This document shows positions 1 through 64,000 of a stretch of DNA of 64,000 bases, piece by piece. Position 1 is the first letter of the stretch, and the number at the start of each line of letters is the position of its first letter. The position numbers and the translations under genes were made by a program. Under the pieces are notes generated by a model, which ran no database searches, was not told where the DNA came from, and worked only from the letters and a program-made list of their open reading frames with translations. Source of the stretch: Nemopilema nomurai (lineage: Eukaryota; Cnidaria; Scyphozoa; Rhizostomeae; Rhizostomatidae); NCBI GenBank assembly GCA_003864495.1, contig ML133457.1, positions 2,748,001 through 2,812,000 on the forward strand, written 5' to 3'.

Positions 1-607
1 TGAAATAGACTATAAAAGCCAAGCTATTTAGGACACTAAAGAGTTATCAGCTTCGACTGTTGCATTGTCTTCAATAAATAGCTTTATAAAGGAACCTTTG
101 TATATCATTGTTATGTGCTCCTGAACTGTTTAAATTTCTTCCTGAGCAAGTGTTTTGCGGTACAAACTAGCATGCAAAAACTGCTTCCGCTATTTCTAGC
201 TATTGAAAACTCTTTTTAATAGGCTTGATGTTGTTCAGTATTTTAATATCGGATGCTACCATTAAATTGTGTTATCTGCTTTCACGCTGTTTTTCTGTGA
301 TCTCGACTTCCAAACATTAAACGGATTGCTAGACTATCATAGACTTTCCTTAAAGATACAACAGAAGATCTGTACGATTACCTCAAAAGTGTTCATATGA
401 AAAACGAAGAAAAGCATAAAAACGCTATAGGTTCACAACCCGCCGGTCTAGAGACCAGAGTGTCTTTCTACACCTATCCCCACCAAAAACCCTGGCTTAA
501 CATACTGTTCTCGTGTAATATAGCAGCACAGAGGATATACCCAACAAAATAAAAGCTATTATATATATTTAAAATAAAAAAGCGACAATCAAGAAATTGG
601 AGTGCAC

Positions 608-3600
608 CTTTCGTGACCACGATCTGATAGAAGACTTTGCCCTGGTGTGAGGTCGATCACCAATGAGGCTTGTGAGCCACGGCTGTCAAGGACAAACATC
701 GGTTTTAATCCATCGTGAAAAGACAGCGGAATCTCAACATCCCCACGTAAGACAACGAGTATAACGTAGACACACAAAAGATCAAGAAAGCCTTGTCAGA
801 AACTTCTTTGACACTCGGAATATTTATTTGAAAAAGGAAAGTAGGTTTTCGCTGCCTGAGACATTAGAAATGAATGCTCTCTACCAGATGAAACTAATGG
901 TTGCAAATGGTGATTTCCATGCAGAGTTTCTTCAAGGAAACCCGTGAAAAGCGCTTTCATTTCATCGGCGTGATATTTTGCGATTTTCGAAACATAGACC
1001 GAGGGTAGAAAAATGATATCCAAATAAAAGAAAAATTGCCTTCCCCACTCCCAAATTTACTTTGGAGGGACTTCACTGAGTAGAGAGGAGATGGACTTTT
1101 TTCGGACTCTGTAACAGTCCGCTTCCAGCTCACAAGCCTTAAAACTATAATGCTTTATAAATTCATTTGACTTTTAGAGAGAGATTGCTCCATAGAACAC
1201 TAACCGACTTTGAAGAAGCCCTGGTCTTTTGTGCTCCCGATCTCCAGTCCATTTCTGGGCCTTGCGTGGTGACCCATGGATAGTGTAGAGATCCTTCAGC
1301 TGGGGTTGCACCATTGTCGGTGACATTGTGTCAATTGGCTTGATGGTGTGGCACACAAAGGTATCATGCTTCTCACGACTCGAGGGGCCAGTTGATCCCA
1401 CTTCCTTTTTACTTTTTGTTCTTTTGAAAAGACACTGTTAAAAGGGATGGTTTGAAATTCATCTTTGGTTAGCAGCTTGCTCAAGGAATACAATACATAC
1501 TTATAGAACAGAGAGCGGTTTAACAACAAATTGGCAGAAGAACGATGAAAAGTGTGGGGATTAACCAGGAAACAACCAAAGACGACTAATTTCAAAAAAG
1601 AGAAGCTTCGGCCGGTTCATTGGGTCATGCTAAAAAGCAAAAGATTGAAAAGTCTTCAGGCCTACCTTGGGAAGAAGCAAATGACAAGCTTGGTTTTCGT
1701 TAATACTTACAACCCATCATAGACACTTTCACTAGCAAATGTGAATTAGCAATTACTTCAAGGGTACTATTTCTAACTGTTTATCAATAGCTCCTAAGAT
1801 GACTTTTATAATTTTGCAATGAGCAGTCCGAGCTTGACATTCCTACGCATACTTACAAAAAGTCAAAATTAAATCAAAAGGGCTTTTACCGAACATTTCC
1901 TTTAACAAACTTCGATCTAACTAGGCAAATAGTTGCTGCCATATTCTCAATGTAAGGTTTATACGTACAACAACAACAGCCATTAGCACCATGAAAAGGA
2001 ACGTTGCTGTGGCGACGGCCGCGACCGGGAACCAGACCTCTTCGGTGAAATTTCGATGCAGACTCACAATTTCTACATTTCGCTGAGACAAAATATTTCA
2101 CTACGTCAGTACGACTTTTCATGCAAAATTACTTATAAACATTGAAAAGGTTATTACTTCAGGGAAATAGGTTATTACTTCAATAACATAACACAAAATT
2201 ACTTCAGGGAAAAGAAATTGGTATCTAAAATATCATTGGTATCATCTGGCAAAATATCATTGAAACTATTAGTTGGCTCAACATTCTTTGTTCATATTGA
2301 TACTTAGTGCCTTAACAAATTTATTAGCAGATCCGTTAAGAATATGGCATGCCTGGAAAATGAAAACACATAATGCGAAAAACGATTCATCCTACAGGTT
2401 TGACCAAAGTCAGAAACAGATCAAAGATGAAATTGAATTTGAGAGGGAGAATGTTACGGGTAAAGGACCATTTTCATAATACTACACTATGGTGCTATCT
2501 ATATGGCTATTTATAAGCTATGGAAAGTTATGTCATGGATGCTGTTTGCGTTTCCTTGCGTGACAACTGATTTCTAGCTGTGACTTCATTTAGCCTCGTA
2601 TGATGGCTATAAAATTGGAAAGGCTTTTGCCTAGCGTGATGCAGCTCAAGTACTGTATAAGTAACAAACACGTAATATAAATACGGCTAGGCAACCTTGG
2701 ATGGATTTTAAGTATATTCACACAATTTCACACATCCATAAAACTTAAATAAGTGAATACATTTTATTAATTCTAGATTTTACGAAGCATGGAATAGATT
2801 CAAACAATGAATAGACTGACAAATGAAAGACCAGTTTAGGTGCAAATGTCCCACAAGGAAATATTCAAAAAATCGGAAAATACCTTGGAATAAAATGTCG
2901 TGACGTTATAATCCTGCAAGAAACCTTTCATCCCTTCGGTTTTGAAGAGAACCACAAGATCTTGACCAGAGATGTAATGTCCTGTCTTAGTTTTAGACGC
3001 GGCCTTTCTGCAGTAAACCTCCAGAGTCTGTGAGGCTGATTTCAACTGAAAGAGACACCAAGAATGATGAAATATTCCATGTGTTGGAAAAACCTGTTCG
3101 GCTAGAGGAACAAACTAAACTGGGCGCCACCCTACTGTCTTGTTCAAAATAAGCAAATTATTCTCCCTTACAAAGAGTTAACGGACAGTGGGAACGAATC
3201 CATGTTGCTCTTCACAGTTGAAGAACTCAATTATTCATGACCACTGGACGCGAAGAAGCTTGAATTCGGAGCTGCACTAAAAATAGTCGTGTGTCTCTTA
3301 TTATAGCAACTTAATATCCTGCCACTTGTTTCCTGTAACCATGCTTAACAAACGAAAAAAATGACTTCAAAAATATGAGTTTTGGGCAAAAACATGACTC
3401 TTAATAGCCTTATTATGGATAGAAGTGTTTTTCACAGTGAACATTTATTTAAATGTGGACATGACAAACGCAACTAAGCTTTCAAAAAATAATGCATGAG
3501 CAAATATGACCGACAAAACTCTTGAAAAGTGTCGTCTTGACAACGAGGTAACCTTCTTTAGCACAACACAAGTTAAAAACACATCGGGATTATTCCAAAT

Positions 3601-6600
3601 CAGAGAAACTGACAATGTTGAAGAAAATCCTGGCGGTAGCAGAGTTGTATCAAAGATCCATAGGATACAAATTCATCGGTGCTTAAGACTGGACGTCAAA
3701 AGCAATGCTTTTCCATTCGTTAGACAAACCAAGAAATACTCCCAAAACTACCACGAAGAATGGTCCCGCTCTTTACAACCTTGAACGTCGGTGAAAAAAG
3801 CAAGGAAAATCCTGTCGGCAAGACATTCCAAGCTCTAGTTGAGACGCCTTTGATATGGCCTAGACTTGTGCGTTTCTGTGTAAATTTAGCCTCCAATTGC
3901 AGTCCTACCTTTTTCAAACTGTCCGAAATTTCTAGGTTTGAAAAAACTGCCGCAATAACATTATCGGACGACACCGCGTCGATTGCATAGAAGAAGGCCG
4001 GTTCGAGACATTGCTGTCTCATGGCCAGTTATTGAAGAGAGTATCGAGATACAAAAGCCTACCAAATGACGCTTTCCCAAGGATAAAAAATCAAGCCTGG
4101 GCATTATAATGGGGGATAAACGAGGAAATTAAGCAATATTTCACCAAGCTTAGAAGTGTTTTGAAAGCCAGAAAATATGCGGGAAATATTCCGGCCCTCT
4201 CATGTGGACTACTCCGCTAACAGTCATGCGACTGCACTGTTTGTCTGAAAATTACAAAAAGGCAATGCTCTTGAAATGACGATTGCAAAGCTGCTAAACC
4301 AACATGTTGATTCGCTCTTACAAGGAATCTGAGAAATTTAATAAAACCAGTTGGCAAATCACAGATAAAATCCAACAGGTTGCGAAAGGCTGAACAACAG
4401 AAAGGCTAAATACGCTCTGTTCGGGATCAAGGCTATTTTTAGCTGGATGGAAGCACAAGAAAGCTTATGAGAGCGCTGTGTCATCACGGCAAGCTCAAAT
4501 GGCACTTGTCTGGGGCCACATATGGAAGGGCGATTTAAACCGACTTTACAGAACATAGCAGCTTTGTAAAACAGAGTCTAGCTCTAAAAAAATTCTCATT
4601 TGCCAAAGGCATAACAGATACTTCAAGCTCGACGGACGGAACTCTCTTTGTTTACCATAATCTACTCACTGTGCCTTCCCCTTCTGCCCTATAGGTGCTC
4701 CTTTCCAAGAGACAACATGCTATATCCTTTTATGATCTACATAATCTACTGTATATTTGCGTGTCCGTGAGGTTTAGGTGTACTTTTTGCAACAGACCTT
4801 CACTACTCGTCACCGCACTCTAACGACCCAACTAAGACCTTTTCGTTGGGTACTTTAAAAAGGTGAGTAAATATATTAAGTCGGCTGACGAACCTTTTTC
4901 GTGCCTAATATCCAACAAGACGCGTCATTTTGTCCTATGCCCGAAGCTATTGTCTGCAAAAACTTGTCCCGTCTTGATTCAAGTTGCGGCTTTGTCAATC
5001 CAACATTCTGAAACAAACAATGTTCTTCGCATTCACTCAACAAAAATGCATGAAAAAAATCGAGAACGTAGATCTACGAAAATTCGACCAATAACTTTCC
5101 CTCGAAAATGGGGTTCACTACAGAATGTTCCTTCTCCCGGGTGCAAATGTGGCAAATCTAGAAAAAAACTTTGTAAAGATGGCAGCATTGAATCTACGAC
5201 AAATCCTTTAAGAAAAACAATTTACGGCTCAATTTCGTGGAGGTATACCATTTAAATCTTTCTTATTTAGAGTGTCTTGGAATTAATCTTAAACGGAGAA
5301 ACAGCTCTAGTCTGCCATAAACTTCCCCCTTAAGGCCACTTTTCTAAAGCATGTACGTTATGAACAGAAGCGGGAACCGTATGCGACCCCTCACAGCCAG
5401 AATTATGAAAGAGAGCCTTCGAAAGCTATCAATTATAAACGACCCTCCCGGAGGCCGAACACCTGCATTACGCTCGGCTATTTTGGCTTCCATCCAATGA
5501 GCCACGTGCTAAAATGTCCTTCAAACTTTCGCCGATTCTCATTAGATATTTCTTAACTGCAGTTCGTGTTCTTTTGCTGCTTGGTGGCTGGCAATGTGTT
5601 GCAAATCACACTAGTGGCCAGTGACAAATACAGGCAATATGGCAAGAAAGAAAATGCACTACAAACTACAGAATCAGCTTCCCCAAATTATTACCGGAAA
5701 GTTGATAGATTAATACTTGAATTCAAATGAGAGCTTTCAAAAGTGAACCACGTATCTCCACATGTAATTATGAACAATATTTGATCTTTTTGTGAATTTT
5801 ATTAAAACAAAACAAATGAACTATTAAGAACTTAACACTTGAAATTCCCAAACAAAATTCCTTTGACTATTGATTAGAATGAAGGAATAAGGGCAATCTT
5901 TGAATACTGAAAAGAATGTAGTCCTTGAAACAAGATACAATTTGGTATTTCTCACACGAGCTTTGGCTGATTTTGAAACAGTCTAAACTTGGGTAAGCGT
6001 TGATCTAAGTTTTTAATCTGTTAGACTCAATGTTAGATTAATACATTTCCTGTTTGCTCATGAAAAGGAACGAATATTTTCCTGAAAATTCCTCGAAAGG
6101 ATTTTCCAAACCTTAAGAATCTTCTACCAAAAGAAGTTACTACCGTTTCAGAATAAACTCAATAACATAAATAACATCAGGATGGATTCTGCCAACGTCT
6201 AATCAAATCCACGCAAGTCTTCCGACAATAAAATACTTCACACAGGCCTTACAGTTTATCATTCAAAATGTATCAGTATTTTACTACAAGATACAAACCA
6301 CTTACGGATATCTAAATGTGAACAACCATTTTATGATATAGAATACTTTGATGTTTCTCCAACTTCACCAAAAAAGCCTTTTCTTAAATTGTGTCTCATG
6401 CGGGCATTAGCGGTGGTATGGTCAAGTGGACAAAGCAGTAATTTGGCCAGGAAGCAGACAAACTAATGTCAGGAAGCCACAATCGAACCACATCTCCCCA
6501 GGAGCCTTTGACAGTGCAGGGCCAACCCGTCTGTCTAACCTTAACTGGGCGGTCAAGGGGTATCCAATTAAAACCCCAAGGTGTAGCCAGATTCATTTTA

Positions 6601-33833: not shown

Positions 33834-36800
33834 CTAACAAAATTTGTCTTTAGCGATTCCATTCTCAAGCTGTAGATGCGCTACTCGAGCCCGCTGCGAT
33901 TCCGGTATCACATAAAGGATTTTGACATTTCCAAATCCATTAAAATGATTACCCATTGCAAGAGAGTATGCTCCCATGTTTTCAAAATATAACAAGTCTC
34001 CAGTCTCCATCTAAACAAGAATACAGACTTGAGTTGATTGGAAAGCTGTGTTATAACAAAGGGTACAAGTAGGTAGAATAAAGGTCCTTCGTACAAAAAG
34101 ACCATTAAATGCAATCTAATTTGCACAGAAAAGCTATTTGAAAAGAACATGATCCGGTTTCATACCTCTCTCTTGAAATGATGACAACTTAATTTACTCA
34201 CAATCTTATTGCAGAAAATTACCTTCGGAAGGACGATATTCTTGGCGATACAGTCCAACGGACCACATGAAACTCCCCATAAGACTGACTGGTAATTATT
34301 CTGTTCCTCACAGCGCTGAAAAAGTTAAGTAGTGTTTCTATTTAACGATGAGGCCTGAAGTGTATGAATCAAAATTTCCCAAACAAAAATATGTAAATGA
34401 AAAGCTTTACATAATTAGACAGATTCGTTTGTTAGCAAAATGCAGATGAGGATTTCAAAGAGCTCTCAGGGACATTATCATTACAACATTATCATTACAA
34501 CATTATCATTACAACATTATCATTACAACATTATCATTACAACATTATCATTACAACATTATCATTACAACATTATCATTACAACATTATCATTACAACA
34601 TTATCATTACAACATTATCATTACAACATTATCATTACAACATTATCATTACAACATTATCATTACAACATTATCATTACAACAATATCATTACAACATT
34701 ATCATTACAACATTATCATTACAACATTATCATTACAACATTATCATCATTACAACATTATCATTACAACATTATCATTACAACATTATCATTACAACAT
34801 TATCATTACAACATTATCATTACAACATTATCATTACAACATTATCATTACAACATTATCATTACAACATTATCATTACAACATTATCATTACAACATTA
34901 TCATTACAACATTATCATTACAACATTATCATTACAACATATCATTACAACATTATCATTACAACATTATCATTACAACATTATCATTACAACATTATCA
35001 TCATTACAACATTATCATTACAACATTATCATTACAACATTATCATTACAACATTATCATTACAACATTATCAGGACATTGTCACTTTTCATGGCATTGT
35101 CACTTTTCATGGCATTGTCACTTTTCATGGCATTGTCACTTTTCATGGCATTGTCACTTTTCATGGCATTGTACGAAAAGATGACAATACATGCTTTGTC
35201 ATTGGGTATTTTTCAAAAGCCTTCAATTCCATATCGATGATTAGAAAAACTCGTATTGTTTTTATAGTCTATGAGGTTACTCATCTATTCACAAACGAAT
35301 GCTATTGACGATTCCAGCATGTATCATTTACAGGCTTGAAATTATAGCGTAGTCTACTTTCTTTGACGAAAATGTTTTTGTTAATTTTGCAGGTATAGAT
35401 CACATATAATCTTTAAATTACAAATCTATAGTTGATGTGTACGCCTTTGCCGTAAAGGCTAAGGCAAGGATGAAATGTGTCAATCAATTGTTAAAATGAG
35501 ATCGATTGTCAATTAAAACAATAATAAACTACCGTTATTGGATTTGGCTCAACCTTTTTTCCAGGAAATCGGAAAGACTGATGAATGCTATCGCTCAAAA
35601 AGTATTCCATCAAAGTCTGAAACATAATCGTAGCAGATTGAGCAATTTCAGATTCGGAAAAGGATGGTTACAATGAAAATCACACTGAATTTAATAAACA
35701 CAATAATAATTCATTAGAATAATAATTTAGCTTTTAAAGTAGTAAAATTGAAATTGTCTTGGAATACAGTTCTATCAGGATTGGGTAGACACAAAAACGA
35801 AAATAGTATAAAGCGCACTTTCATTAGCAACTTTGAGTTAGTATAATCTTAACAGCTTTCTGAAGATTACAATGCTCTTGCTTTTCTATATTTTGCTGGT
35901 AGTACATTCTATACTGATCGTGCCACATATAGACATGCTTGACTTTAAAAATCTTTGTTATTTCTATTGGCACTTCTTGGTATATGTCCTTCCGATATAG
36001 ATTGTTGAAGTTTCTCTGTTGCCCCAAACTGTTATATGGAAATCTGTTAGAGGCTGGCCCGTTTAGACATGTTGAGCCCTGCTCTTGTTGAAGAAGGAGC
36101 TAGTGCTCCGACTGAAGATGCGGTTTGACATGATCAAACTTTTTGAATTCATACAATTATCGCATTCAATCATCTCACACATATCTCATTGTAACTCATA
36201 AAATTAATAACTTGCAGTAATTGATGGTAAGTGCCACAAAGAAATAACTACTTGCGAATTAGCTCAAAAAGGCTCCTTTGCAGATGTTTTTCATGTTTTT
36301 TTTTCCAAGTCATATTACAACCGAAAAATTCCAAGCGTTGTTAGATTTATTAAAATATGTGGGCCCAATTTAGCTAACAACTTAAATACATATCAAAAGA
36401 GTTTCACGGAAAAAGATAGTTCTAGTCACCCTATTAGAGCCTTCCATGGTGAATGACTTCTGTTCGGAGGATTCTCGAACTCCAACTACTTCGCAAGCAC
36501 ATGAAAAGGCCTGGTCAGAAAAATACCGTCCTGGTTCAGCAATTATTCGGATTCCGGAAGATGGTGGGAAATGCTCTTCAAAAGCCACTGCCAATGTTTT
36601 TGCAATCTGAAAATGAAATGCCGGTGTTTATCACTTACTACCGGGGACATCTGAAACTTTTTAGCGTCACTCTACATGGAAGCCCTACGCAGAGCTCAAG
36701 ACTGATAGAGGAACTGTCACAACTACTTCTACCTTTCGAGGCGCATCTCTAGCTAGGGGACCAAACAGTTCATAATAAGGGAACTTCTCCAGCAATCGAC

Positions 36801-39800: not shown

Positions 39801-42800
39801 GTTGCAGTTAACCCCTTCTTCTTTGCAATAGAATTACCCTTAGTCAAACACAGGAGATATGTCTGTTCCATATGTCAAATCCCGATCCGGGTTACTCTAT
39901 GTATATCAATAGGCTCATGAGCGGTAATGTGCCTTTTCTTGTAAATAATTTCAGGTTTTTAACAAGAAGTATGATTTTATCGAAAAATGATTTCCGCAGA
40001 GTATACGAAAATTTAATGGCAATGTAGAAAATACTGTCTAAAGAAAAAGAGGAGCAGTGACCAAACGAAGAAGACTCGACCATTTGCCTCAAAAAGGGTA
40101 GGAGAGCGCACCAAACGATGTACGAGAGCGTACAGGCGAGACTCGTACTCAGGGAGCGTACCAGGTGACAAAGACTCGACCATTCAAAGAAGAGGAGCAG
40201 TGTAAACAAAGAAGCGACCATTTGCCTCAAAGGGTAGGAGAGGCACCAAACGATGTACGAGAGCGTACCAGGCGATCGTCATTGCCCAAAAAAGAAGAGG
40301 AGCAGTGACTAAACAAAGAAGATTCGACCATTTGCCTCAAAAAGGGTAGGAGAGCGCACCAAACGATGTACGAGAGCGTACCAGGCGAAAAATACTCGTC
40401 GATTGGCCCAAAAAAGAAGAGGAGCAGTGACCAAACGAAGAAGACTCGACCATTTGCCTCAAAAAGGGTAGGAGAGCGCACCAAACGATGTACGAGAGCG
40501 TACCAGGCGAAAAAGACTCGACCATTGCCCCAAAAAAGAAGAGGAGCAGTGACTAAACAAAGAAGATTCGACCATTTGCCTCAAAAAGGGTAGGAGAGCG
40601 CACCAAACGATGTACGAGAGCGTACCAGGCGAAAAAGACTCGACCATTTACCTCGGAAGAGCGTACCAGGTGAAAAGACTCGACCATGCCCAAAAGAAGA
40701 GGAGCAGTGACAAACAAAGAAGATTCGACCATTTGCCTCAAAAAGGGCAGGAGAGCGCACCAAACGATGTACGAGAGCGTACCAGGCGAAAAAGACTCGA
40801 CCATTTACCTCAAAAAGGGAAGGGGAGCGTACCAGGTGACAAAGACTCGACCATTGCCCCAAAAAAGAAGAGGAGCAGTGACTAAACAAAGAAGATTCGA
40901 CCATTTGCCTCAAAAAGGGTAGGAGAGCGCACCAAACGATGTACGAGAGCGTACCAGGCGAAAAATACTCGTCGATTGGCCCAAAAAAGAAGAGGAGCAG
41001 TGACTAAACAAAGAAGATTCGACCATTTGCCTCAAAAAGGGTAGGAGAGCGCACCAAACGATGTACGAGAGCGTACCAGGCGAAAAATACTCGTCGATTG
41101 GCCCAAAAAAGAAGAGGAGCAGTGACAAACAAGAATTCGACCATTGCCTCAAAAAGGGTAGGAGAGCGCACCAAACGATGTACAAGAGCGTACCAGGTGA
41201 AAAATACTCGTCGATTCCAAAAAGAAGAGGAGCGTACCAGTGACGAAGAGACTCGCCATTTGCCTCAAAAAAAGAGGAGCAGCGACAAACAAAAGACTCG
41301 ACCATTTGCCTCAAAAAGAGACCACTCAAAGAGGGAGCGTACCAGGTGACAAAGACTCGACCATTGCCCCAAAAAGAAGAGGAGCAGTGACTAAACAAAG
41401 AAGATTCGACCATTTGCCTCAAAAAGGGTAGGAGAGCGCACCAAACGATGTACGAGAGCGTACCAGGCGAAAAAGACTCGACCATTGCCCAAAAAAGAAG
41501 AGGAGCAGTGACTAAACAAAGAAGATTCGACCATTTGCCTCAAAAAGGGTAGGAGAGCGCACCAAACGATGTACGAGAGCGTACCAGGCGGATAATCAGC
41601 GTACCTGCGACTCGATTGGCCCAAAAAAGAAGAGGAGCAGTGACCAAACAAAGAAGACTCGACCATTTGCCTCAAAAAGGGCAGGAGAGCGCACCAAACG
41701 ATGTACGAGAGCGTACCAGGCGAAAAAGACTCGACCATTTACCTCAAAAAGGGAAGGGGAGCGTACCAGGTGACAAAGACTCGACCATTGCCCTAAAAAA
41801 GAAGAGGAGCAGTGACTAAACAAAGAAGATTCGACCATTTGCCTCAAAAAGGGTAGGAGAGCGCACCAAACGATGTACGAGAGCGTACCAGGCGAAAATA
41901 CTCGTCGATTGCCCCAAAAAAGAAGAGGAGCAGTGACTAAACAAAGAAGATTCGACCATTTGCCTCAAAAAGGGTAGGAGAGCGCACCAAACGATGTACG
42001 AGAGCGTACCAGGCGAAAAATACTCGTCGATTGGCCCAAAAAAGAAGAGGAGCAGTGACCAAACGAAGATTCGACCATTTGCCTCAAAAGGGGAGAGCGC
42101 ACCAAACGATGTACGAGAGCGTACCAGGCGAAAGACTCGTACTACAAGGGAAAAAGCGTACAGTGACAAAGACGTCGATTGCCCAAAAAGAAAGGAGCAG
42201 TGACTAACGAAGAAGATTCGACCATTTGCCTCAAAAAGGGTAGGAGAGCGCACCAAACGATGTACGAGAGCGTACCAGGCGAAAAAGACTCGACCATTTA
42301 CCTCAAAAAGGGAAGGGGAGCGTACCAGGTGACAAAGACTCGACCATTGCCCCAAAAAAGAAGAGGAGCAGTGACTAAACAAGAAGATTCGACCATTTGC
42401 CTCAAAAAGGGTAGGAAGCGCACCAAACGATGTACGAGAGCGTACCAGGCGAAAAAGACTCGACCATTTACCTCAAAAAGGGAAGGGAGGCAGTGACCAA
42501 ACGAAGAAGGACTCGACCAGTGAAGATTCGACATTTGCCTCAAAAAGGGTAGGAGAGCGCACCAAACGATGTACGAGAGCGTACCAGGCGAAAAATCTCG
42601 TCGATTGGCCCAAAAAAGAAGAGGAGCAGTGACCAAACGAAGAAGACTCGACCATTTGCCTCAAAAAGGGTAGGAGAGCGCACCAAACGATGTACGAGAG
42701 CGTACCAGGCGAAAAATACTCGTCGATTGGCCCAAAAAGAAGAGGAGCAGTGACCAAACGAAGAGGACTCGACCATTTGCCTCAAAAAGGGTAGGAGAGC

Positions 42801-45133
42801 GCACCAAACCATGTACGAGAGCGTACCAGGCGAAAAAGACTCGACCATTTACCTCAAAAAGGGAAGGGGAGCGTACCAGGTGACAAAGACTCGACCATTG
42901 CCCCAAAAAAGAAGAGGAGCAGTGACTAAACAAAGAAGATTCGACCATTTGCCTCAAAAAGGGTAGGAGAGCGCACCAAACGATGTACGAGAGCGTACCA
43001 GGCGAAAAAGACTCGACCATTTACCTCAAAAAGGGAAGGGGAGCGTACCAGGTGACAAAGACTCGACCATTGCCCCAAAAAAGAAGAGGAGCAGTGACTA
43101 AACAAAGAAGATTCGACCATTTGCCTCAAAAAGGGTAGGAGAGCGCACCAAACGATGTACGAGAGCGTACCAGGCGAAAAATACTCGTCGATTGGCCCAA
43201 AAAAGAAGAGGAGCAGTGACAAACGAAGAAGACTCGACCATTTGCCTCAAAAAGGGTAGGAGAGCGCACCAAACGATGTACGAGAGCGTACCAGGCGAAA
43301 AAGACTCGTCGATTGGCCCAAAAAAGAAGAGGAGCAGTGACCAAACGAAGAAGACTCGACCATTTGCCTCAAAAAGGGTAGGAGAGCGCACCAAACGATG
43401 TACGAGAGCGTACCAGGCGAAAAATACTCGTCGATTGGCCCAAAAAGAAGAGGAGCAGTGACCAAACGAAGAAGACTCGACCATTTGCCTCATAAAGGGT
43501 AGGAGAGCGTACGAAACGATGTACGAGAGCGTACCAGGCGAAAAATACTCGTCGACTGGCCCAAAAAAGAAGAGGAGCAGTGACCAAACGAAGAAGACTC
43601 ATCAAATCGAAAAGTTCCTTAGGGATTTCGTTTTAGTAGTATAAGTTCTTTAAATATTTCGGCCTTTTACATGTAGCAGGGGCGGCAGAGAGCACTAGTA
43701 ATACTATTAGTCTTATAGTAGTTCTTTTCCATAATTTTTCTAATTATTTTTGTAAAAAAATTGAAAAAAGTACCAAACGATAGCAAACAATAGCAAACGA
43801 CAGGTCTTCTTAATGGGAATGGTCCCATTGCTCTAGTTTACTTGATATTGGTTACGTGACGTGCATTATTCCTTAATTCCATAAAATAAGCCGCTGACAT
43901 TTCTTTGCAATCCAGTCGCAATAAGATTTGAAGGAGAACAATTGAAAGTTTCGTCATCTGCCCCATTGTTGGTGACGTTGCAACTATTGTGTCGCAGGCA
44001 TGTGAAACTACTGAACTATTCGTTTTGAGAATCCAATTCTCCGATTCTGATATGCGTTATCGATTTTTCATCTTGACATCCACGGCTCTTTCTCAGCAAT
44101 GAACATCAGAATTGAAATCCTGACCTTTAACTTAGTTTATACTGTCGCCAGTTTCTTTGTTTTGTATATTTAGATATTTCATGCGATTTGACCACAATTT
44201 GCGGCTGCAGTGAAATTCAATTCCAGGATTTACGGTATGAAGATAAAAAATTTATCGAATCCGAGAATAGCATCAAAATTGAGTCAGGCCTCACAGTCAC
44301 AAGTCGAGGAAATTTTTTCCAAAGCTCGCTTCAAAATGAATGAAGTTGCCTCAGATAGAGTTAAATGAAATGTTTTAGAAGTGTTGTCCTTTTTGTCAGA
44401 ACGGCGTAACGTAATCTATGAGCAACGTCTTAGTCTTAAAGACGATGGACAACCATGCGCAGAAGTTTCACTTAAAAACAGGTCTTGCCAAGTGGTTTAT
44501 GATCACTTTTCATGAATATGTGGCTTCATGAAGCTTTTTTTGAAATTTCTTGTACAGCTGTAGACTTTTTTAATTTTTTTTGAGTCACCTGAGCTGAAAG
44601 AAGCGGCTATACTATTCGTTTTCAGAAACCAATAGTGAGGTTACGGCATTACGTGGGCTACAAACCGTTGTAAAAAATGGCCGCACCGGCACCCATCACA
44701 CGCAAAATACTAGCAGAATATAATTTTCTGTAACCGCATATAATACTGCTTTGAACGATTTTCTAGAAAATAAATCATTTACAGCAGTATGTAGTATTAT
44801 ATTGTTGAGATTATGCATATTTCTATATTTGAGAAACAGATATTTTAACTTAATTCACTTCTTGGTTTAACTTCTCGTTGTATTGTAAGCCGGCATCAAT
44901 TCTCAAAATTGGCGTTTCTATGTGAAAAAAGGGTTGGGTCACCAAAACTTTTTGCTTCAAATTTCCAGGCAGTTTAAAATAATTGCGCTTTTATTATATC
45001 ACGCTTTCTTCTAAATTAAGGAACAATAAATCAATACACAAACCTTTTCTAGAAGCATCTTCTTTTTAGCATTAAAAAAATCACCCAAATCAAAGCCATC
45101 GTTGACGATCTCAATGAAGCTCTCACCGTCCAT
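33834..45133 (-). CDS. Ornithine decarboxylase-like PLP enzyme
   Basis: Ten coding exons join in phase: 45133-45044, 39679-39583, 39113-38818, 38540-38452, 38338-38257, 37807-37724, 36606-36430, 35616-35533, 34315-34223 and 34010-33834 (TAG), giving 422 aa. It is a fold-III pyridoxal-phosphate enzyme of the family that turns ornithine into putrescine. Landmarks in order: AVKCN with the cofactor Lys65; SFHVGSG; LLDIGGGFPG; AEPGRY (270-274); SDSIHQSFRF with Asp314; LWGVSCGPLD with Cys350; ENMGAY with Tyr379. The usual WGPTCDGLD reads WGVSCGPLD, so the Asp next to the catalytic Cys is Gly351, and NDGVYGS is SDSIHQS. These residues bind the substrate end, so specificity may differ or activity may be lost, as in antizyme inhibitors. 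The protein ends soon after the barrel and lacks the long C-terminal degradation tail of vertebrate enzymes. Intron 1 carries a 3.6-kb minisatellite; intron 8 carries a 14-bp satellite. Confidence 0.9.
34473..35073. repeat. 14-bp satellite array, about 43 copies
   Basis: Near-perfect tandem repeats of CATTATCATTACAA. Rare variants insert an extra ATC/CAT or lose a base, and one unit has AATATC. The array lies wholly in intron 8 of the decarboxylase gene. Because 14 x 3 = 42, a spurious open frame with a 14-residue period runs through it; it is not a gene. Confidence 0.97.
35077..35171. repeat. 18-bp satellite array, about 5 copies
   Basis: Tandem CATTGTCACTTTTCATGG units directly follow the 14-bp array after a GGA joint. 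Both units open with CATTRTCA, so the 18-bp unit may have arisen from the same seed. Confidence 0.93.
36620..37140. other. Intronic region with decayed ORFs
   Basis: Within intron 6 of the decarboxylase gene are two open minus-strand stretches (36885-36685 and 37130-36882). The sequence is more GC-rich than its surroundings, which suggests an inserted retroelement or processed sequence, but no domain could be named. Confidence 0.3.
40035..43602. repeat. 122-bp minisatellite array, about 28 units
   Basis: The commonest unit is 122 bp, with successive copies of TAGGAGAGCGCACC at 40347, 40469 and 40591. It contains GACTCGACCATTTGCCTCAA, GAGAGCGCACCAAACGATGT, ACGAGAGCGTACCAGGCG and AAGAAGAGGAGCAGTGAC. 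A second unit type carries an extra segment (TTTACCTCAAAAAGGGAAGG then GGAGCGTACCAGGTGACAAA), giving longer composite periods in places. Short motifs such as GAGCGTACCAGG and ACTCGACCATT recur within a unit, pointing to an older short repeat. The array lies in intron 1 of the decarboxylase gene. Many long spurious ORFs on both strands come from it; none is a gene. Confidence 0.96.
43608..43678. mobile_element. TAAGGAACC-family element, copy 2 fragment
   Basis: ATCAAATCGAAAAGTTCCTT and the following 50 bases are the inverse of 14660-14735 almost base for base, including TTTAGTAGTATAAGTTCTTT and TATTTCGGCC. It abuts the right end of the minisatellite array, so the array may have grown inside a copy of this element. 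Confidence 0.7.
44623..44710. repeat. 88-bp dispersed repeat, copy A
   Basis: CAGAAACCAATAGTGAGGTT through CACACGCAAAATAC matches 55995-56082 with three differences seen, in direct orientation. High similarity and sharp edges suggest a recently mobile element fragment. Confidence 0.85.
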
Positions 45134-48100: not shown

Positions 48101-49293
48101 GTGACCTCATAAAGAAAAGCCGTGGTGGATGAAACGTTTGTGTTTCAGAATAAACGGACTTTATTCTGTGGTCAACTAGCTATGCATTTACTGATTTGTT
48201 TTCAAACAAAGGACCAGACATTGGAGGATGTCCCATTTTCCCATCAATATTCAATTTATCGTAATATGCAATAACCCTCAGAAAAAATAAGATTGAAAAG
48301 ATGCCAAATTACCAATTTGTTTTCTGGCACCATGACTTAAAATATATTCTATCAATATGTTACTCTATTCAGCTCTCGAGAAGAAACATCGAAGGTCTTT
48401 GAACCTCAACAAGTATTGATTATCTCAGCTGTAGTTTCAAACTTTTTCTAGTATGGGTAAGGTGACACAAAACAAAGTTGAATGCTGAAACCCCAAGCTA
48501 TCTGGCTCCTAAACCGGGCAATAGAACGTAGTTCCAAAATCGGGTACATAGCCACGCTTCCCCTTCCCTATGTGCGATTCGTTTTATTATTTCTATGAAT
48601 GTTTAAATCACCGTGAAAGTTTTTGGCGCTTGCATATGTTTTCGGGAAAAGATTATTGTGCCCATCTTATTCGTTTTGGCCCCATTTCTTCAAATCGGTG
48701 TCCAGCCTTTGTCTGAGTTTTATTTCGATGTTAAATAATTCTATCTGCTACAAAACTATTTTGATGAAGGTATCTTATTTACGTTAAAATAAAAAGAAAC
48801 TAGATCTTTTGTCATTATTTCAAGATAAATTTTTCACAAATTGCAGAAATGTGATTAAATTTTAGAATGAAATTTCTTTCGTATTGTCCAGGAAACAAGT
48901 GGTTACACGTAAAGTGCATTAAAATGACCAGGAAGCCGCCACTTTCGGCAGAAAGGGAAAAATGTGATGTGATTAATAATATGATGTGATGAATTTTCTT
49001 GCTGTAATGAATAATTATGGAAACTTTGAACCGTCAAAAGCCCCCAAATTCGCAATACGTTCTAAACTTTCTATATTCTCCATTCGATAACTTTATGGTG
49101 CATTTTTCAAAATTTGGCTCTATACGGGTTCTAATCCATTTTCGTTGCTTAACAGGTATTGCTTTAAATCCAAGCAGAGTCTACCGCAGGCCTATTTTGA
49201 GGCTCAGTGATAACCAATTTGTGCAGTGATAAATCCAAAATGGTCAGTGATAAATGGAAAATTGTGCAGTGATAAATTAGTTGAAACAGCAAA
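45183..49293. other. Intergenic, no gene recognised
   Basis: AT-rich DNA between the proximal decarboxylase exon 1 and the THAP transposon. ORFs are short, with no splice structure or known domain. Just before the transposon, 49207-49280 carries four spaced copies of CAGTGATAA. Confidence 0.45.
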
Positions 49294-49502
49294 ATTCGGC
49301 TTTAAAGTGAGGTGCCGCCTGATTGGTCAATCAGCGCGTGCCTAGATACGTTGGTAGCAACGAGGCGCACCAGAATAAATGTCAACAAGATACTGCGGTT
49401 GTAAACATTCGAGCTTAGCTGACGTCTATATTAACAATTTTTTTTCCAAATTCTCGCTTTTACAAAGTTCACTTGGCGTATTTATATCAATTAAATCGTG
49501 CT
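49294..49502 (+). repeat. Left 209-bp terminal inverted repeat
   Basis: Starts ATTCGGCTTTAAAGTGAGGT and ends ATCAATTAAATCGTGCT. It matches the inverse of 53283-53491 at 208 of 209 positions; the difference is GAGCTTAGC here against GAGCTGAGC there. It precedes the SWIM-YqaJ gene and probably contains its promoter. Confidence 0.95.
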
Positions 49503-49587
49503 ATCCTGTTCAGTACTTAAATAATTGCTTGGAATCGACACTTGAAGTGTTTGCGCTCGGAAGGCCTAGTCAGTCAATATAGAAGTT

Positions 49588-50226
49588 ATGGCGGAGGTAA
49601 TATCACTTACCGGAATGGTCAAGTTTTTCAAAGAGGATACAAACTGTTTGGAAAAAGGGGAGCTGAAATTCAAGTCAAGTTTTGTTCTTGATGTCAAGTT
49701 AATTGGCCATGAAGTTAAAGCTGTTGTACGAGCGTCGATGAAGGACAAGTGTTACAACGTGTCTCTGACTGTTGACGGTGAAGGGGGTATCTCTACTAGT
49801 CATTGTCAGTGTCCGAGAGGAAAATGGATCTGTAGTCATATGGCAGCTGCAGCTATATTTGTTAATAAACGTGGATTTTCCAAAACGGATCTTCCGAACT
49901 CTTGGATTGCAAGACCTAAAAAGTTCGTCGAACTCAAGCCTATGTCGGATTTGTTTCCCACGCCGAAGCCCGACTATAGAGCAACATCACGTGAAGTTGA
50001 TGATGAAGACAGGGCTTTCTTTTATAAAGAACTTTGTGAAACAGGGCTTACGTGTCCTTTTCAGTGGATACTTGGTCCAGAACCGCCACAAATTCAAGCC
50101 AATAACCCGCTAATGCCGCAGCTAATAGAGGACCTTGTAGAAGACTTCTTAAGCAACAAAGAAGCATTCATTGAAAAATGTAAAGTAAATGATGCACAGA
50201 TAAAATGGTTGGCATCAAACACGTAG
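49588..50226 (+). CDS. SWIM zinc-finger protein, N-terminal half of transposon accessory nuclease
   Basis: A 212-codon frame starting just inside the left repeat. The motif CQCPRGKWICSH (CxCx6CxH, about residues 73-84) is a SWIM zinc finger, a DNA- or protein-binding module often found on transposon proteins. The end (QIKWLASNT then TAG) runs straight into the YqaJ frame: if the ribosome or an ancestral sequence shifted by one base at ACGTAG, the protein would continue VEQRLSPMW without a gap. The two frames were therefore almost certainly one protein, separated by a single-base deletion or, less likely, by -1 frameshifting; no canonical slippery heptamer is present. Its role in transposition is unknown. 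Confidence 0.8.
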   Translation: MAEVISLTGMVKFFKEDTNCLEKGELKFKSSFVLDVKLIGHEVKAVVRASMKDKCYNVSLTVDGEGGISTSHCQCPRGKWICSHMAAAAIFVNKRGFSKTDLPNSWIARPKKFVELKPMSDLFPTPKPDYRATSREVDDEDRAFFYKELCETGLTCPFQWILGPEPPQIQANNPLMPQLIEDLVEDFLSNKEAFIEKCKVNDAQIKWLASNT

Positions 50227-50888
50227 AACAGAGGCTTTCTCCAATGTGGGCTAAATTCAGGCGATTACGCTTAACAGGCAGCAATTTTGGGGCAGTTTTG
50301 AAAGCCATACAACGCAACAAAAATCAAAACCGACCCTACCCTCCTTCCCTGTTTAAAACATTGAGAATGGAATATTCACTTGGAAAAAAAGATGCCATTA
50401 TGTGGGGTCAGATGCATGAGGAGATGGCAATCCAAAGCTATTCTCAGATAACAGGCAACACTGTAACAAAAACTGGTCTCCATTTATTTCCTTGTGGTTT
50501 TTTGGGTAGCAGCCCAGATGGCATTATTTCAGTTCCTGATGACACAGAAAATATTGGGGTTATTGAAGTTAAATGCCCATTCAAATACAGAAATGCAAGC
50601 ATCAGTGAGATAATACAAAATGAACTACCTGATGGTTCTAAGGGAAGCTCATTCTACCTTAAGAAAGATGGTCATCTGAGAGAGAACCATGAATACTGGC
50701 ATCAGGTGCAAGCTGAAATGGCCTCAGTTGGTGTCAATTGGGCACATTTTGTGCTATGGACTCTAAAGGAGACATACTACACCCAAGTGATCAGAGACCC
50801 AAACTGGGAAAAGATATCACTCCCATTGCTTCAAGACTTTTATTTGAATGAGCTGTTTCCAACATTTTATACAAAAGATAATGAGTAA
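50221..50888 (+). CDS. YqaJ-like nuclease domain, C-terminal half of transposon accessory protein
   Basis: An open frame that can be read from an ATG at 50205, though the homologous part begins at about 50221. It carries the YqaJ/lambda-exonuclease pattern in order: RLTGSNFGAVL, MWGQMHEEMAIQSY (Glu), LGSSPDGII (Asp), GVIEVKCPFKYR (Glu-x-Lys) and YWHQVQAEM (Gln). All residues expected for metal-dependent nuclease activity are present. In phage the family trims DNA 5' to 3' for recombination; in these transposons a role in end processing or repair is plausible but inferred. Codons and composition match the preceding SWIM frame, supporting a single original gene. Confidence 0.85.
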
Positions 50889-51410
50889 ATAATAATTACT
50901 TGATGCTTTCTGTCGTTATTTCTATCATTTCTTATCTATAAAATGACTTAAAATCATTACATGTTCATTTTATTCTAAATTAAAAACAGTAACAAACTTT
51001 TACAAGAAAAAATAACAGTATTAACTGACATAAACCTCCAACTGTAATAAGTTACATACTACTGTATAAACCTACACATAAGGTGCACTTTTCTCTCATC
51101 AGCCTGTTTTACATTGTGTATCATTATACTGTAACAATTTAAGTCATCATGTGTCAAATGAGACAGTCTTCAATATTCAATAAGTAGGCAACGTTTCTGG
51201 AGCATTGACTTAGATACCCAAAAAACTTTTCATTATCAAATATTTTCATAGCACAAAGGCCAGTTATTGCCCCCAACTTGAATTGATTTTTGGATTTGGG
51301 TTGTATGCATGCTTTTCATTAGGTTGCATAAAATTATAAATTCAGCTTAAGTATGGAACAGCTTTTGTGTAGATTTTTACAGTATATGCTGTATATTATT
51401 GTTTATATTA
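50889..51410. terminator. Convergent 3' ends of the two transposon genes
   Basis: A 522-bp AT-rich spacer between the YqaJ stop and the transposase stop, with no ORF of note. Both transcripts must end here or overlap. Exact poly(A) sites cannot be fixed by eye. Confidence 0.45.
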
Positions 51411-53213
51411 TCATTCTTCAAAATCAGACACAATAACTGAAGCAGAATAGTTGTCAAATACCCCAGAAATAACAGGTGACTGCAAATCCACAAGAGCAGC
51501 ACAGACTTGAACTATCTTGTCTGCAAATGGCCTTAAAGGGGCAGTCAGCTGATTGACGATCTTATAGTTTCTTATTCGTCCAATTGCTCGTTCGACATGT
51601 ATTCTGCAACCAGCCAGTTTTCTTGAAAATGTTGCCTCTTCCTTGGTAAATTGAGATTTGCCAGCAAGAAAGGCAGGCAGATTCAAAAACACATTTTTTG
51701 GCAAGATGTCATGAATTAAGAATCCCTTGTCTGCTAAAATTAAATCCCCAGCCTGTAGAAAGATAATGAATATACATACATATGATATAAACAATATATT
51801 CAGAAAAGAATTTCTGTGTTGTTGTCACAAAGATGGCAACAAATTTTCCTTTTAAAAGGAGGCTAGGCTCTAATTCAAGTTTACTCTGACAGAATAAGGA
51901 CTGTAATTGTTGGAACACTGGAACATTATTTGCAAATGTTGAATCTTTGGAAAAAAATCAATGGCATTGAGGGGCAAAGGAAGTTTTAAACATGACATAC
52001 ACAGCTTGCAGATATACTTAAAATTTGGCATCATACTTTTAGTATCCTGTTCTAAGTATGGAGAGGTTCTACTATACTGTAATTTTAGTTGTATAAAACA
52101 CACCTGTAAATGATGCAATATGCCACTGTCCTTTGTCACAGCCTTGTCACTGGCACTTCCTGGAAAACCATTGCTTACAAATGTTACTGCACCATTTGGA
52201 GCAACACCAATCAAAAACTTGCCTGTCAAATAATGTTTGTAGTTGCTAAAAGAAGAGGCTGCAGCTGCAAGGTCTTTTCTTGGCACACTAATTCTAAATT
52301 CTGTGCAGTCAATTATTATTCTACAGTTTGAGAAGTCACCAAAGGAATCCGGAAGACTGCATTTATTCTTTTCAATGCTTGGCAATGACGTTATCATACC
52401 TTTGAAGAGAGTTTCATGAGTTGAATGTAAATATGTCATGAAAATGTTTTGTACGCTGGTCTGGCTGATCATGAATCTTCGAGCTAAATCAAAGTATGGC
52501 AAATCCAATTTAAGTTTCATGAGGAACATGAGCAGTTGGTCTTCTTTTGAGACAGAGATGATAGCTGATCCTGACCAGTATTTTAAAGGGGATAACCTAT
52601 CAATTAGCCTGACCAAACAATTGAAAAATGGCCTTTGTAACCCTGTATACCGTAGAACATCATCGTCACTCAAATTAGAAAACGAGAAGCAGCTTTTTTG
52701 AAGTTGAGAAATTTTATCCTCAGCTGCTGCAAGTTTGGCTTTTATTGATCTCAACTCTAAGAAATCGGTCTCTGGCTCCTCGAATCCGACACCATACCCT
52801 TCAGGTTGCGTAACATCAGATAACAGCAAAGTACTCTGCGAAACAGTTTCAGGCACTGCCGTAGATGCAGTAGGCGATGTTATGGGCATTGCTGCCTTCA
52901 TAGAAGCCAATGTCTTCCTTTTTGACACACGCTCGTCAGCTGAATTCCCACGAAGATTTAAGTTAGGAATCGCACCCTTCTTCAGTCGTTTTCTCCTAAA
53001 CTTTTCAGGAGCATCACTTTTTGGTTCTGTGAACTGGTCCGACGAGAAATGTTTGCTACACACATAAGAGCTTGAAGATGGTGTGAATCCCTCCCTCCTT
53101 ACTCTAGCAATCCAAGATTTTCTTGTGTTGCAATCGGCTGGAAACTGGAAAAAAGATTCATCCGAGGAGGTTGATGAGGCGCTACAACCAAACACTGAAC
53201 AGAATTTCGGCAT
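51411..53213 (-). CDS. THAP-domain DDE transposase, apparently intact
   Basis: Two exons, 53213-52104 and 51752-51411, joined in phase at CAG/GCT across a 351-bp intron (GTGTGT donor, tttctacag acceptor), giving 483 aa. The start is placed at MPKFCSVFGC because it opens the THAP domain; the frame is open further upstream into the right repeat. THAP zinc ligands are Cys5, Cys10, Cys52 and His55, with Pro25 and Trp34 conserved and AIPNLN closing the domain. A linker with a short coiled coil leads into a DDE_4/Harbinger-like nuclease: Asp302 (IIIDCTEF), Asp378 (LILADKGF) and Glu424 (HVERAIGRIRNYK). The PGSASDKAV box fits the same fold. No stop or frameshift was seen, so the gene could be functional. 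THAP presumably binds the terminal repeats. Confidence 0.9.
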
Positions 53214-53282
53214 CTTGGGCCTAACTCGATATTTCGGGCCAACGATGGAATATGTTGATACAAACGAAATCAAGAACAGCAA

Positions 53283-53491
53283 AGCACGATTTAATTGATA
53301 TAAATACGCCAAGTGAACTTTGTAAAAGCGAGAATTTGGAAAAAAAATTGTTAATATAGACGTCAGCTCAGCTCGAATGTTTACAACCGCAGTATCTTGT
53401 TGACATTTATTCTGGTGCGCCTCGTTGCTACCAACGTATCTAGGCACGCGCTGATTGACCAATCAGGCGGCACCTCACTTTAAAGCCGAAT
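53283..53491 (-). repeat. Right 209-bp terminal inverted repeat
   Basis: Inverse of 49294-49502 with one difference in 209 bases. It lies directly upstream of the transposase start and probably supplies its promoter and the transposase binding site. Confidence 0.95.
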
Positions 53492-54204
53492 AAAGAATTC
53501 ATACGAAAAAAGTAACAAAAAATAAGCACACAGAACGTAACGGTAATAATATGAAAAGCGAAGCAAACAAATCAAAAGTTTCTGGTGTATAATAGTTCAC
53601 AGTTACTATGTTTTAAAAACGTTTTCAGAAACATTCCGTGTCGCTCGAATTGCTGTCTGACATTTGAAATTTTTCGTACACGCTTTAGACACCCACCAGG
53701 GAATTATCCGAAGACGAAAATCTGTGTGACGTCAATCCGAAGTGCTCCGAAAATGGCTTTCAAAAACAATTCAACTCAACGAACAACTTACAAACGCTTA
53801 TAACTACAAAACCGTAAGAGATATGAAAAAATAATAGCAGATCTGTGTTCAGGAGGCCAGATTACATCGTAATCGAAAGTAAAATTGCTTGGCTGGAGTG
53901 GTCCTTTAATAACCAATGCATGTACCTGGACATCCTCACAAATTACGGGATGGGAAGATTTAGACAGAAAAGATTAAAATTTTTAGCAGCTATGATTATC
54001 CTTTGATTATCCAACCAAAAAATCCCCTTTATCCGTTGTCCACGAAAACATACTTGTTCCTGCGACCTCATTTTGCCAAATTTCATAACATTCATCAACA
54101 CTTTCTACGTGCTTTGAAAACACTCTTTGATTGGCTATTCAATTCAACAGCTTCATCATGAAAATAACATGCTATGAGTAAGTTGAATATCATGTTCAAA
54201 TAAG

Positions 54205-57524: not shown

Positions 57525-58945
57525 GTTAATCCTCACTGCTACATTCTGATTCTATAACCTCCGGAATTCTCTGAAAATGCGAAACATTCCGTGTAATGCG
57601 ATGCTTATCTTTGTTTTCTACGACAACTCTAGTGCCGTTACATTCAACCGTCGATTCTAAAAGACTGAATACTCCAAGAACAGGCTGAACACCCCAAGAA
57701 CACCCCAAGAACACCCCAAAACATCCTAAAACATCCTAAGAACATCCTAAGAACATCCTAAGAAGCGGCTGAACACCCTTTAAAACATATCGAAATCGGC
57801 ATATCATTCGGAAAATAATTTCGTCAATCAATAAAAATTAATTTTGGGGCGGGAAAGGGCCTGATAAGTCTAGTGCTGTTGGTGTTGTTATAACCAACTG
57901 ATGTTTTGCGCGTCAAAAGTGTGAACGGGGGTTTGTACACTTGTCGGGTTATACTTTACACCAAGTAACTGTAAGTAACGAGCGAACTCATCTCCATTGA
58001 ATGGTGGTCCATTGTCTGACGTTAACTCTAGTGGTATTCCATGGGTGGCAAATATTTTGTCTAACTTTGGAATAACAACATAACTTTTCGTCGATCTCAC
58101 TATCTCTACCTCTGGGTATCTGCTATACCGGTCGATAACGACTAGAAGTAATTCACCTGACGAAAGTGAACCAAAAAAGTCGAGATTAAGTTTTTGCTAT
58201 GGTGCAGTTGGCATCTCAGTCATTCGAAGAGGTTCAGGAGGATTTGGCCTCCCAACAGCTTCACAGGGCAGACATCTATCAATAGTCTCCTTGTCAAATG
58301 AATCAATTTCAGGAAACCAGATCACTTCTCGCAAAAGTGCTTTTGTTTTTTCTAGTCCCTGATGGCTTACGTGAGCTAAGTCAACTGCTTTCTTTTGTAA
58401 CGTAGCAGGTAGGACTATTCTCGAACCACGTGAGATTATGTTTGATTTTCCGATTGATACTTCAGCTTTGACTGGTATGACCGATTTGACTGTGTCTGAA
58501 TCCCAACGATTGGGATGAATTGCAGCTCGAAGTGCTTTTAAAACGCTCCACGAATTTCTTCCAGAGTCATTGACATTGGAATTGCTTGCTGTAGTAAAAG
58601 GTTTACATACTCATCAGCCATTTTGCCTTGTTTTCCCGTATTACTCACGGAAGGGTGTCGTGACAGAAAGTCCGTATGATTTGTTGGTCTTGGTTTTTAT
58701 TTTACATGGAAATCGAATGGTTGAAGGCGAAGTACCCATCTCTCAATTCTAGTACATGGTTTTGATCTTGCACTGCCATAGATAACTTCCAAGGGCTTAT
58801 GGTCTGTTTCGATTGTAAATGGATGACCATAAAGATAAAGATGAAAATGTTCCACGGCCCAAACTATGCTTAGGGCTTCTCTCTCGGTTTGAATATATCG
58901 TCGCTCACGGTAGGAGTTTTGCCCGAGTACAGAGGCATGCATATA
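57525..58945 (-). pseudogene. Ty3/gypsy-type pol remnant (RNase H and integrase)
   Basis: Read on the minus strand from 58942: RNase H (RYIQTEREALSIVWAVEHFH, LYGHPFTIETDHKPLE), a linker with DFLSRHPS, the integrase zinc region (LAHVSHQGLEKTKALLREVI with RCLPCE), the integrase core (LDFFGSLSSGELLLVVIDRY, ELTSDNGPPFNGDEFARYLQ) and, after a gap, a C-terminal piece (KHRITRNVSHFQRIPE). At least two in-frame stops (after GAF and after PTAP) and a frame break make it dead. The reverse transcriptase, protease, gag and long terminal repeats are missing. Confidence 0.88.
57683..57768. repeat. Short tandem repeat in the integrase tail
   Basis: Units of about 11 bp: AAGAACACCCC, then AAAACATCCT and AGAACATCCTA, repeated about eight times with drift. 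It interrupts the decayed integrase C-terminus. Confidence 0.7.
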
Positions 58946-59233: not shown

Positions 59234-59848
59234 TCAAAAGAAATGTGAGTCCCGACTCTTTCTATGTCCAAATGTATCAATCATCGCATTCATGTCACTT
59301 TTCAAAACTTCATTTGACAATTTTCTCTCGATGCTAAGTAGTGCCAAATTGCTCAGCCGTTCTTGGTCCATGGTTGATCTGAGATATGTTTTTAGCCGTC
59401 GAAGACCACTGAATGAACTTTCAGCTGAGCAAGATGTTGCTGGAATCGTTGCCAGCAATGATGTTGCTTCATACAGGACTGGTAGTACTTGATGCAAACC
59501 TTCTTGAAACATCTTCTGGACAAGCATTGCTGCATTATTACCATAAGATTCAGAAGTGCTTTGCTTCTTGTAATTTTCAAAAACCACCTTATCATTTTTA
59601 AGGCACTCTTGGTCGATTTGATAATGCAACGATATTGACTCGTAGCTTTCATTCTTTGGGTTATTTAAAAATACCACGTCTGCCAAAGCACATAGAATTT
59701 GCTGGTCATTTTCTGCAAAGCGGGATTGTATTAAATTTACGGGACAAATCAAAGACACTGTTACATTCTTTGCATTCAACTGAGTATCGGTATTTTCTTT
59801 TTCTTGTTGTCGAAGCCATGACTGCCAGATGAAAATATCTTGCTCTTG
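59234..59848 (-). pseudogene. hAT transposase, C-terminal part
   Basis: Open minus-strand frame ending at 59234. The signature LLATIPATSCSAESSFSGLR followed by RLKTYLRSTMDQERLSNLAL is the hAT dimerisation region (with IPATS and Trp/Leu-rich ends). The frame begins right after a TGA at about 59849, and nothing resembling the BED finger or catalytic core is found upstream, so this is a 5'-truncated copy of about 200 codons. The frame itself is undamaged. Confidence 0.85.
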
Positions 59849-63479: not shown

Positions 63480-63915
63480 CGAGGACGTCTTGTCGTTGTA
63501 CGGGAGCGAGATCGATTTAATGCAATGGAAGTCGAAGGAGTGACTCTGAAGACACTGCTAAATGCTAGAGGATTACATTGTTTCAGCGACTTTAACGAAA
63601 GTTTACACGCACTAAAAGACTTTCAGGGGGAATTGCTTGCTGCCTTATATTTGTTCCGAGGTTGCTCGTGATCAATCCAGCTACATCGTGCACTAATCGA
63701 GCCTCCTTTTCAACAGTAAGACGCTTGAAAACGTGGCTAAGATCAATCACGTCCAGTAAAAGATTCAATGCCTTGGCCCTGCTTAACGTTCATAAGGAGC
63801 TCACAGATGCTTTAGATCTGGTCGCAGTTGCTAATGAATTCACTGGATTTAATGATCGGAGAAGGCACTGTTTTGGACAGTTTGACTCCTCTGGCTTGGT
63901 GTGCCGAGCTGACTT
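63480..63915 (+). pseudogene. hAT transposase C-terminal fragment
   Basis: The plus-strand frame from 63662 reads VINPATSCTNRASFSTVRRL then KTWLRSITSSKRFNALALLN, the hAT dimerisation region. Upstream, SLYGSEIDLMQWKSKE (about 63493-63540) fits the preceding conserved segment but is separated by stops and frame changes. It is a decayed copy in the orientation opposite to, and distinct in sequence from, the hAT frame at 59.2 kb. Confidence 0.78.
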
Positions 63916-64000
63916 GACAAATCTGACTTTTCTCCGCAAAATGCTATCAGATGTTGTACTTTCGAAAATATCATACACTAATCACATTTTATGATTGATT

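Follow-up and report, generated by a model that had tools for sequence, protein, structure and literature searches.

The element and its two genes

The window analysed here, a stretch of 64,000 nucleotides from contig ML133457.1 (assembly GCA_003864495.1, positions 2,748,001 to 2,812,000 of the forward strand), contains a DNA transposon with two convergent (tail-to-tail) genes, one for a THAP-DDE transposase and one for a nuclease in which a SWIM domain precedes a YqaJ domain (Table 1). In the four open reading frames (ORFs) scanned, the THAP, HTH_Tnp_4, DDE_Tnp_4, SWIM and YqaJ domains each scored above their own Pfam cut-offs, the score of YqaJ being 60 bits (cut-off 22), which bears out the gene pair named in the original prediction for this locus.

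The transposase, read from the minus strand with its start at 53213, is encoded in two exons separated by a clean GT...AG intron and keeps an open frame of 483 amino acids (aa). The zinc ligands of its THAP domain are all there, as C5, C10, C52 and H55, and D302, D378 and E424, proposed earlier as a catalytic triad, align with residues shared without exception by 31 of 31 relatives, these being the ones aligned from 120 listed matches (624 in all). A fold search with the transposase returned no match at E 0.001, the THAP part resembling THAP structures and the catalytic part weakly resembling DDE enzymes.

The nuclease gene is split between its two domains. The SWIM frame ends at a stop at 50226 and the YqaJ domain lies in a different plus-strand frame; the window copy has one base fewer here than the two other near-full copies in the genome, and each of the 33 aligned relatives (of 72 matches, picked for length) runs through the junction as one protein. 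The gene is therefore frame-broken or carries a one-base assembly error, and on the same evidence we reject a programmed frameshift or an intron between SWIM and YqaJ. Long-read assemblies often carry one-base indels, and only this one break was detected in the gene, both of which count for an assembly error in a fully intact copy. We nevertheless consider that explanation doubtful: nuclease lesions are present in all three near-full copies, some of them common to the copies on contigs C143 and C25, so decay is usual here. The other stops and frame breaks of the subfamily fall at positions other than the SWIM-YqaJ junction. The description of the element as intact or nearly intact thus stands for the transposase only. 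Barring an assembly error at the break, the nuclease gene of the window copy is predicted not to work, and for movement this copy would then depend on nuclease made by other copies.

Inside the AT target duplication, the inverted arms show one mismatch over their first 207 base pairs (bp) and three over the first 216; with the AT included, the match extends over 49294-49511 and 53274-53491. The repeats, which begin TCGG, had been described as 209 bp long with one mismatch; the single mismatch holds, and the length included the 2-bp duplication. The insertion lies in a host repeat that is short (about 240 bp) and dispersed. Ten fetched copies of this repeat, 88-97% identical to the element's flanks piece by piece, are paralogous empty sites, and 10 of 10 hold a single dinucleotide (AT in eight, AC in two) where the element has AT on both sides, so AT was duplicated on insertion. 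This comparison, proposed with the original prediction, also answers the concern that the repeats could be an assembly artefact, since the sequences on both sides of the element correspond to copies of a single host repeat that lack the insertion. No empty allele of the window insertion was found on another contig in flank searches that scored the best 40 of 91 and the best 40 of 1461 candidates, the flank matches listed being dispersed repeats.

Each arm has a TATA-like stretch at the same offset, about 30 bp before the end of the arm match, and both genes begin farther in. The genome also has a sister family, described below, in which each of the two genes has its start codon at offset 157 within an arm; as a result, its two predicted proteins agree at all but two of their first 37 residues. 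By analogy with MuDR of maize, for which promoters within the terminal repeats are described in passages of PMC3276141, the long repeats may carry one promoter copy per gene. MuDR likewise pairs a transposase with a helper gene of unknown function, although transposase and helper protein are both unrelated to those found here (same source).

Table 1. Positions of features of the window element, with the reference copy of the sister family
Feature	Position	Strand	Basis or remark
Whole element	49296..53489	.	4194 bp; inverted arms and ten empty sites
Left AT target duplication	49294..49295	.	Single dinucleotide in ten empty sites
Right AT target duplication	53490..53491	.	Single dinucleotide in ten empty sites
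Left terminal inverted repeat	49296..49502	+	207 bp; weaker match extends to 49511
Right terminal inverted repeat	53283..53489	-	207 bp; weaker match extends to 53274
Host repeat, left part (insertion target)	49187..49293	.	Similarity to dispersed copies
Host repeat, right part (insertion target)	53492..53626	.	Similarity to dispersed copies
TATA-like stretch, left arm	49479..49488	+	Possible nuclease-gene promoter; same offset in both arms
TATA-like stretch, right arm	53297..53306	-	Possible transposase-gene promoter; same offset in both arms
Nuclease gene, first half (SWIM frame)	49588..50226	+	212 aa to stop; SWIM match 49756-49863
Frame break between SWIM and YqaJ	50215..50226	+	One base fewer than two other near-full copies
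Nuclease gene, second half (YqaJ frame)	50193..50888	+	Pfam; YqaJ match 50247-50732
Transposase exon 2 (D378, E424, stop)	51411..51752	-	Pfam and reading frame
Transposase intron	51753..52103	-	351 bp, GT-AG; predicted from sequence
Transposase exon 1 (THAP, HTH, D302)	52104..53213	-	Pfam and reading frame; THAP match 52956-53201
Sister-family reference copy	440-4537 of locus L089		Contig C77

Copies, relatives and selection in the genome

The convergent nuclease-transposase pair recurs in the genome as a unit. Genome-wide profile searches were taken to the best 150 of 209 candidates for YqaJ (PF09588) and the best 150 of 617 for DDE_Tnp_4 (PF13359). Among the 150 listed YqaJ matches, 90 have a DDE_Tnp_4 match tail-to-tail within 3 kilobases (kb), against a mean of 3.0 and a maximum of 9 in 1000 shifted controls in which the DDE matches were moved by 15-100 kb and given random strands. 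The window pair itself falls outside the 90 because the intron splits its DDE domain, which is absent among the 150 listed DDE matches. A SWIM match (from 64 above the cut-off in the genome) lies within 3 kb of 27 of the 150 YqaJ matches, on the same strand in 25, 24 of these upstream. The YqaJ matches are concentrated, 118 of the 150 lying within segments, picked post hoc, that cover 3.5% of the assembly, on contigs C1, C2, C25, C45, C56, C133, C143 and others, as if these elements inserted into one another in a few regions rich in repeats.

Counting copies, a check proposed with the original prediction, gave a low number. In a search that scored the best candidates only, three near-full copies turned up, which represent two insertion sites, along with diverged remnants. 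Identity to the window copy is 97.5% for the copy on C143 and 97.8% for that on C25; between those two it is 98.4%. They have common flanks adjoining the element, the left flank being 98.7% alike over 2 kb and the right flanks matching at their start before the 2-kb alignment collapses, and we read them as one insertion in two haplotypes or duplicates. A 10-bp deletion, a one-base deletion and a stop in the nuclease gene are common to both, and C25 carries more lesions; as for the transposase, the C143 copy keeps an open frame, with one 6-bp deletion and no stop, and in the C25 copy the frame is shifted. Read with its neighbouring bases, the duplicated AT lies in A-AT-A at the window site and in A-AT-T at the C143/C25 site. 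A SWIM-YqaJ remnant of a different gene lies near the C143/C25 copy, so copies seem to nest. An apparent excision footprint at a C133 paralogue of the C143/C25 site was interpreted as an empty site near which a short, separate insertion lies, and was not used.

Whether the window copy is young, as had been claimed, receives a divided answer. Its arms differ at 3 of 214 positions, and those of the C143 and C25 copies at 10 of 211 and 12 of 212, which makes the window insertion seem younger than the other one. No near-identical sibling of the window copy was found among the best candidates scored genome-wide, and arm identity cannot date an insertion: we discarded it as a clock because the sister family includes near-identical copies, yet the arms of one of these differ at 6 of 270 bases.

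That sister THAP-DDE/SWIM-YqaJ family is about 4.1 kb long with 270-bp terminal repeats. Full-length copies on C77, C160, C56 and C150 are 100% alike (rounded); a further copy on C25 stands at 98%, and one on C2 is in two pieces. The arm differences just cited are those of the C77 copy, the only one read base by base, in which, as in the window, SWIM and YqaJ fall into two different ORFs. Frames around YqaJ measure 621, 621, 621, 620, 515 and 407 aa; for the DDE domain the surrounding frames measure 607, 607, 607, 557, 519 and 390 aa, with no stops within the matched stretches and one copy full-length for both. Recent movement is better supported for this family than for the window copy, and with several near-identical copies and long open frames for both genes it is the better object of study.

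These observations bear on an account in which the subfamily is dying, the window copy, if a late mover, having relied on nuclease from other copies or families and now being inactive. The nuclease is broken in all three near-full copies and the transposase frame open in two of them, two insertion sites were found in all, and other families in the same genome keep long open nuclease frames. Set against this, nuclease help across families is a supposition, and the break may postdate the insertion; we regard the account as evenly poised.

Comparison of the nuclease gene with a diverged subfamily (C56, C31 and C133 copies) gave proportions of synonymous differences (pS) of 0.84-0.92, which are saturated, while those of nonsynonymous differences (pN) remain at 0.27-0.28 for both nuclease halves, counted in well-aligned blocks only, which lowers pN. 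Against nearer relatives (C143, C133), the ratio of nonsynonymous to synonymous substitution (dN/dS) is 0.41 for the SWIM half and 0.24 for the YqaJ half; for the YqaJ half it is 0.20 against the C143 copy (Fisher p 0.0006) and 0.09 against the C25 copy (1e-5). A ratio of 1.7, on very few changes, was obtained in the C56 group, whose members are nearly identical. Taken together, the sequence comparisons show the signature of purifying selection on the nuclease partner, which has been preserved during the spread of these transposons.

Among named relatives, Rhopilema esculentum LOC135689022 comes closest to the nuclease, with 97% protein identity over 71% of the window nuclease (49588-50888). 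For a second Rhopilema esculentum nuclease (P0013), no match in this genome exceeds 64%. Should the host be another species, horizontal transfer would be a possible source of the likeness that is worth testing.

Proposed role of the nuclease

The element fits a further member of the known ISL2EU group (PHIS superfamily), apart from the GG with which repeats of that group usually start. As outlined in PMC4482050, ISL2EU elements have AT duplications, a THAP-HTH-DDE transposase, a YqaJ partner, terminal inverted repeats of 6-259 bp and the target A-AT-T. The window element shares the duplication, both genes, a repeat length within that range (207 bp) and, probably, an animal host; it differs in the SWIM domain of its nuclease and in the broken nuclease frame. 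The function of the second gene is given as unknown in that source, in agreement with the earlier remark that the role of YqaJ is poorly understood. The relevant part of PMC9179366 states that its authors knew of no proof of ISL2EU activity, and the sections of the ISL2EU literature covered (PMC4482050, PMC9179366, PMC7826175) contain no description of a SWIM fusion in these transposons that we found. PIF/Harbinger elements are similar in their related DDE transposase and two-gene plan, but have a 3-bp TWA duplication in place of the 2-bp AT and a Myb/SANT second protein in place of SWIM-YqaJ; no Myb/SANT domain was matched in the four ORFs scanned. KolobokE and KolobokD are likewise exonuclease-carrying DNA transposons, with a lambda-exonuclease-like enzyme in KolobokE, but according to passages of PMC9587614 they belong to a different transposase superfamily and duplicate TTAA.

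Structure modelling predicts for the nuclease a lambda-exonuclease-like fold, active site and 5'-phosphate pocket. Among the structure matches listed, the closest to the model are end-dependent exonucleases, including lambda exonuclease and LHK-Exo; the catalytic residues, a PD-(D/E)XK active site in the lambda-exonuclease fold, are invariant in 33 of 33 relatives, and the residues of the 5'-phosphate pocket are conserved. The window nuclease differs from these enzymes in being fused to SWIM and carried by a eukaryotic transposon, and no annealing-protein gene was seen within the element.

We favour, at a probability of roughly 55%, the reading that the locus holds an ISL2EU-type insertion with an open THAP-DDE transposase and a convergent SWIM-YqaJ partner, frame-broken in this assembly, of a kind that would probably act as an end-resecting exonuclease. 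The transposase would excise the element and paste it into AT, while the SWIM domain would bring the nuclease to the donor break. The nuclease is likely a 5'-phosphate-dependent 5'-to-3' exonuclease that would resect the ends presumably left by the transposase, and stripping of the 5' strands at the donor would lead to homology-run repair by which the element is restored or duplicated. The recurring orientation, the selection, and the lambda-exonuclease active site with its end-binding pocket make end resection a concrete and testable proposal. A wider generalization is tentative and, in our estimate, rather improbable: a class of two-enzyme resecting transposons in which the exonuclease resects the donor and copy-back repair turns cut-and-paste into net duplication, both genes having a common terminal-repeat promoter and, in the sister family, a common N-terminus of 37 residues.

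Two other roles for the partner are weighed by the same evidence. In a TnsA-like division of labour, the DDE transposase would cut the 3' ends and the PD-(D/E)XK partner the 5' ends, giving clean cut-and-paste; Tn7 follows such a plan of a DDE enzyme with a separate nuclease, and the excerpted PMC9527255 reports cointegrates on loss of TnsA. Invariant active-site residues suit this role as well, but the closest structures listed are end-dependent exonucleases and a conserved 5'-phosphate pocket is unneeded by an enzyme that cuts at internal sites, so we hold it to be improbable. The absence of a TnsA chain among the structure matches listed for the nuclease model excludes nothing. Equally improbable to us is a partner that is mainly a DNA-binding or recruiting factor, with nuclease activity minor, like the Myb-like protein of Harbinger, which by the account in part of PMC9179366 directs the transposase into the nucleus and onto the element's ends. 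The SWIM part, a conserved additional domain, would suit such a factor; the invariance of the catalytic residues and the stronger constraint on the YqaJ half in the C143 and C25 comparisons argue for catalysis.

Several observations weigh against end resection by a conserved two-gene system. No DDE_Tnp_4 match is listed within 3 kb of 57 of the 150 YqaJ matches, and three more have one in another orientation; 123 of the 150 have no SWIM match within 3 kb, and in two the SWIM match is on the opposite strand. The wider substitution counts are biased towards low pN by the use of well-aligned blocks. For the transposase, constraint was significant neither against C143 (p 0.50) nor against C25 (p 0.12), and the same holds for the SWIM half, compared with C143 alone (p 0.53). 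The element's repeats start with TC, whereas passages of PMC4482050 give GG as the usual ISL2EU start, a tendency and no rule. A shared fold is no proof of exonuclease activity, and the two-gene system is known here from sequence and predicted structure.

Other sequences in the window

Long tandemly repetitive stretches at 34419-35308 and 40581-43598 yield repetitive ORFs, in three frames in the former. Judging by their motifs, we take the ORF at 58197-58610 to be a retrotransposon integrase remnant, and those at 59234-59848 and 63596-63994 are presumably remnants of hAT transposases.
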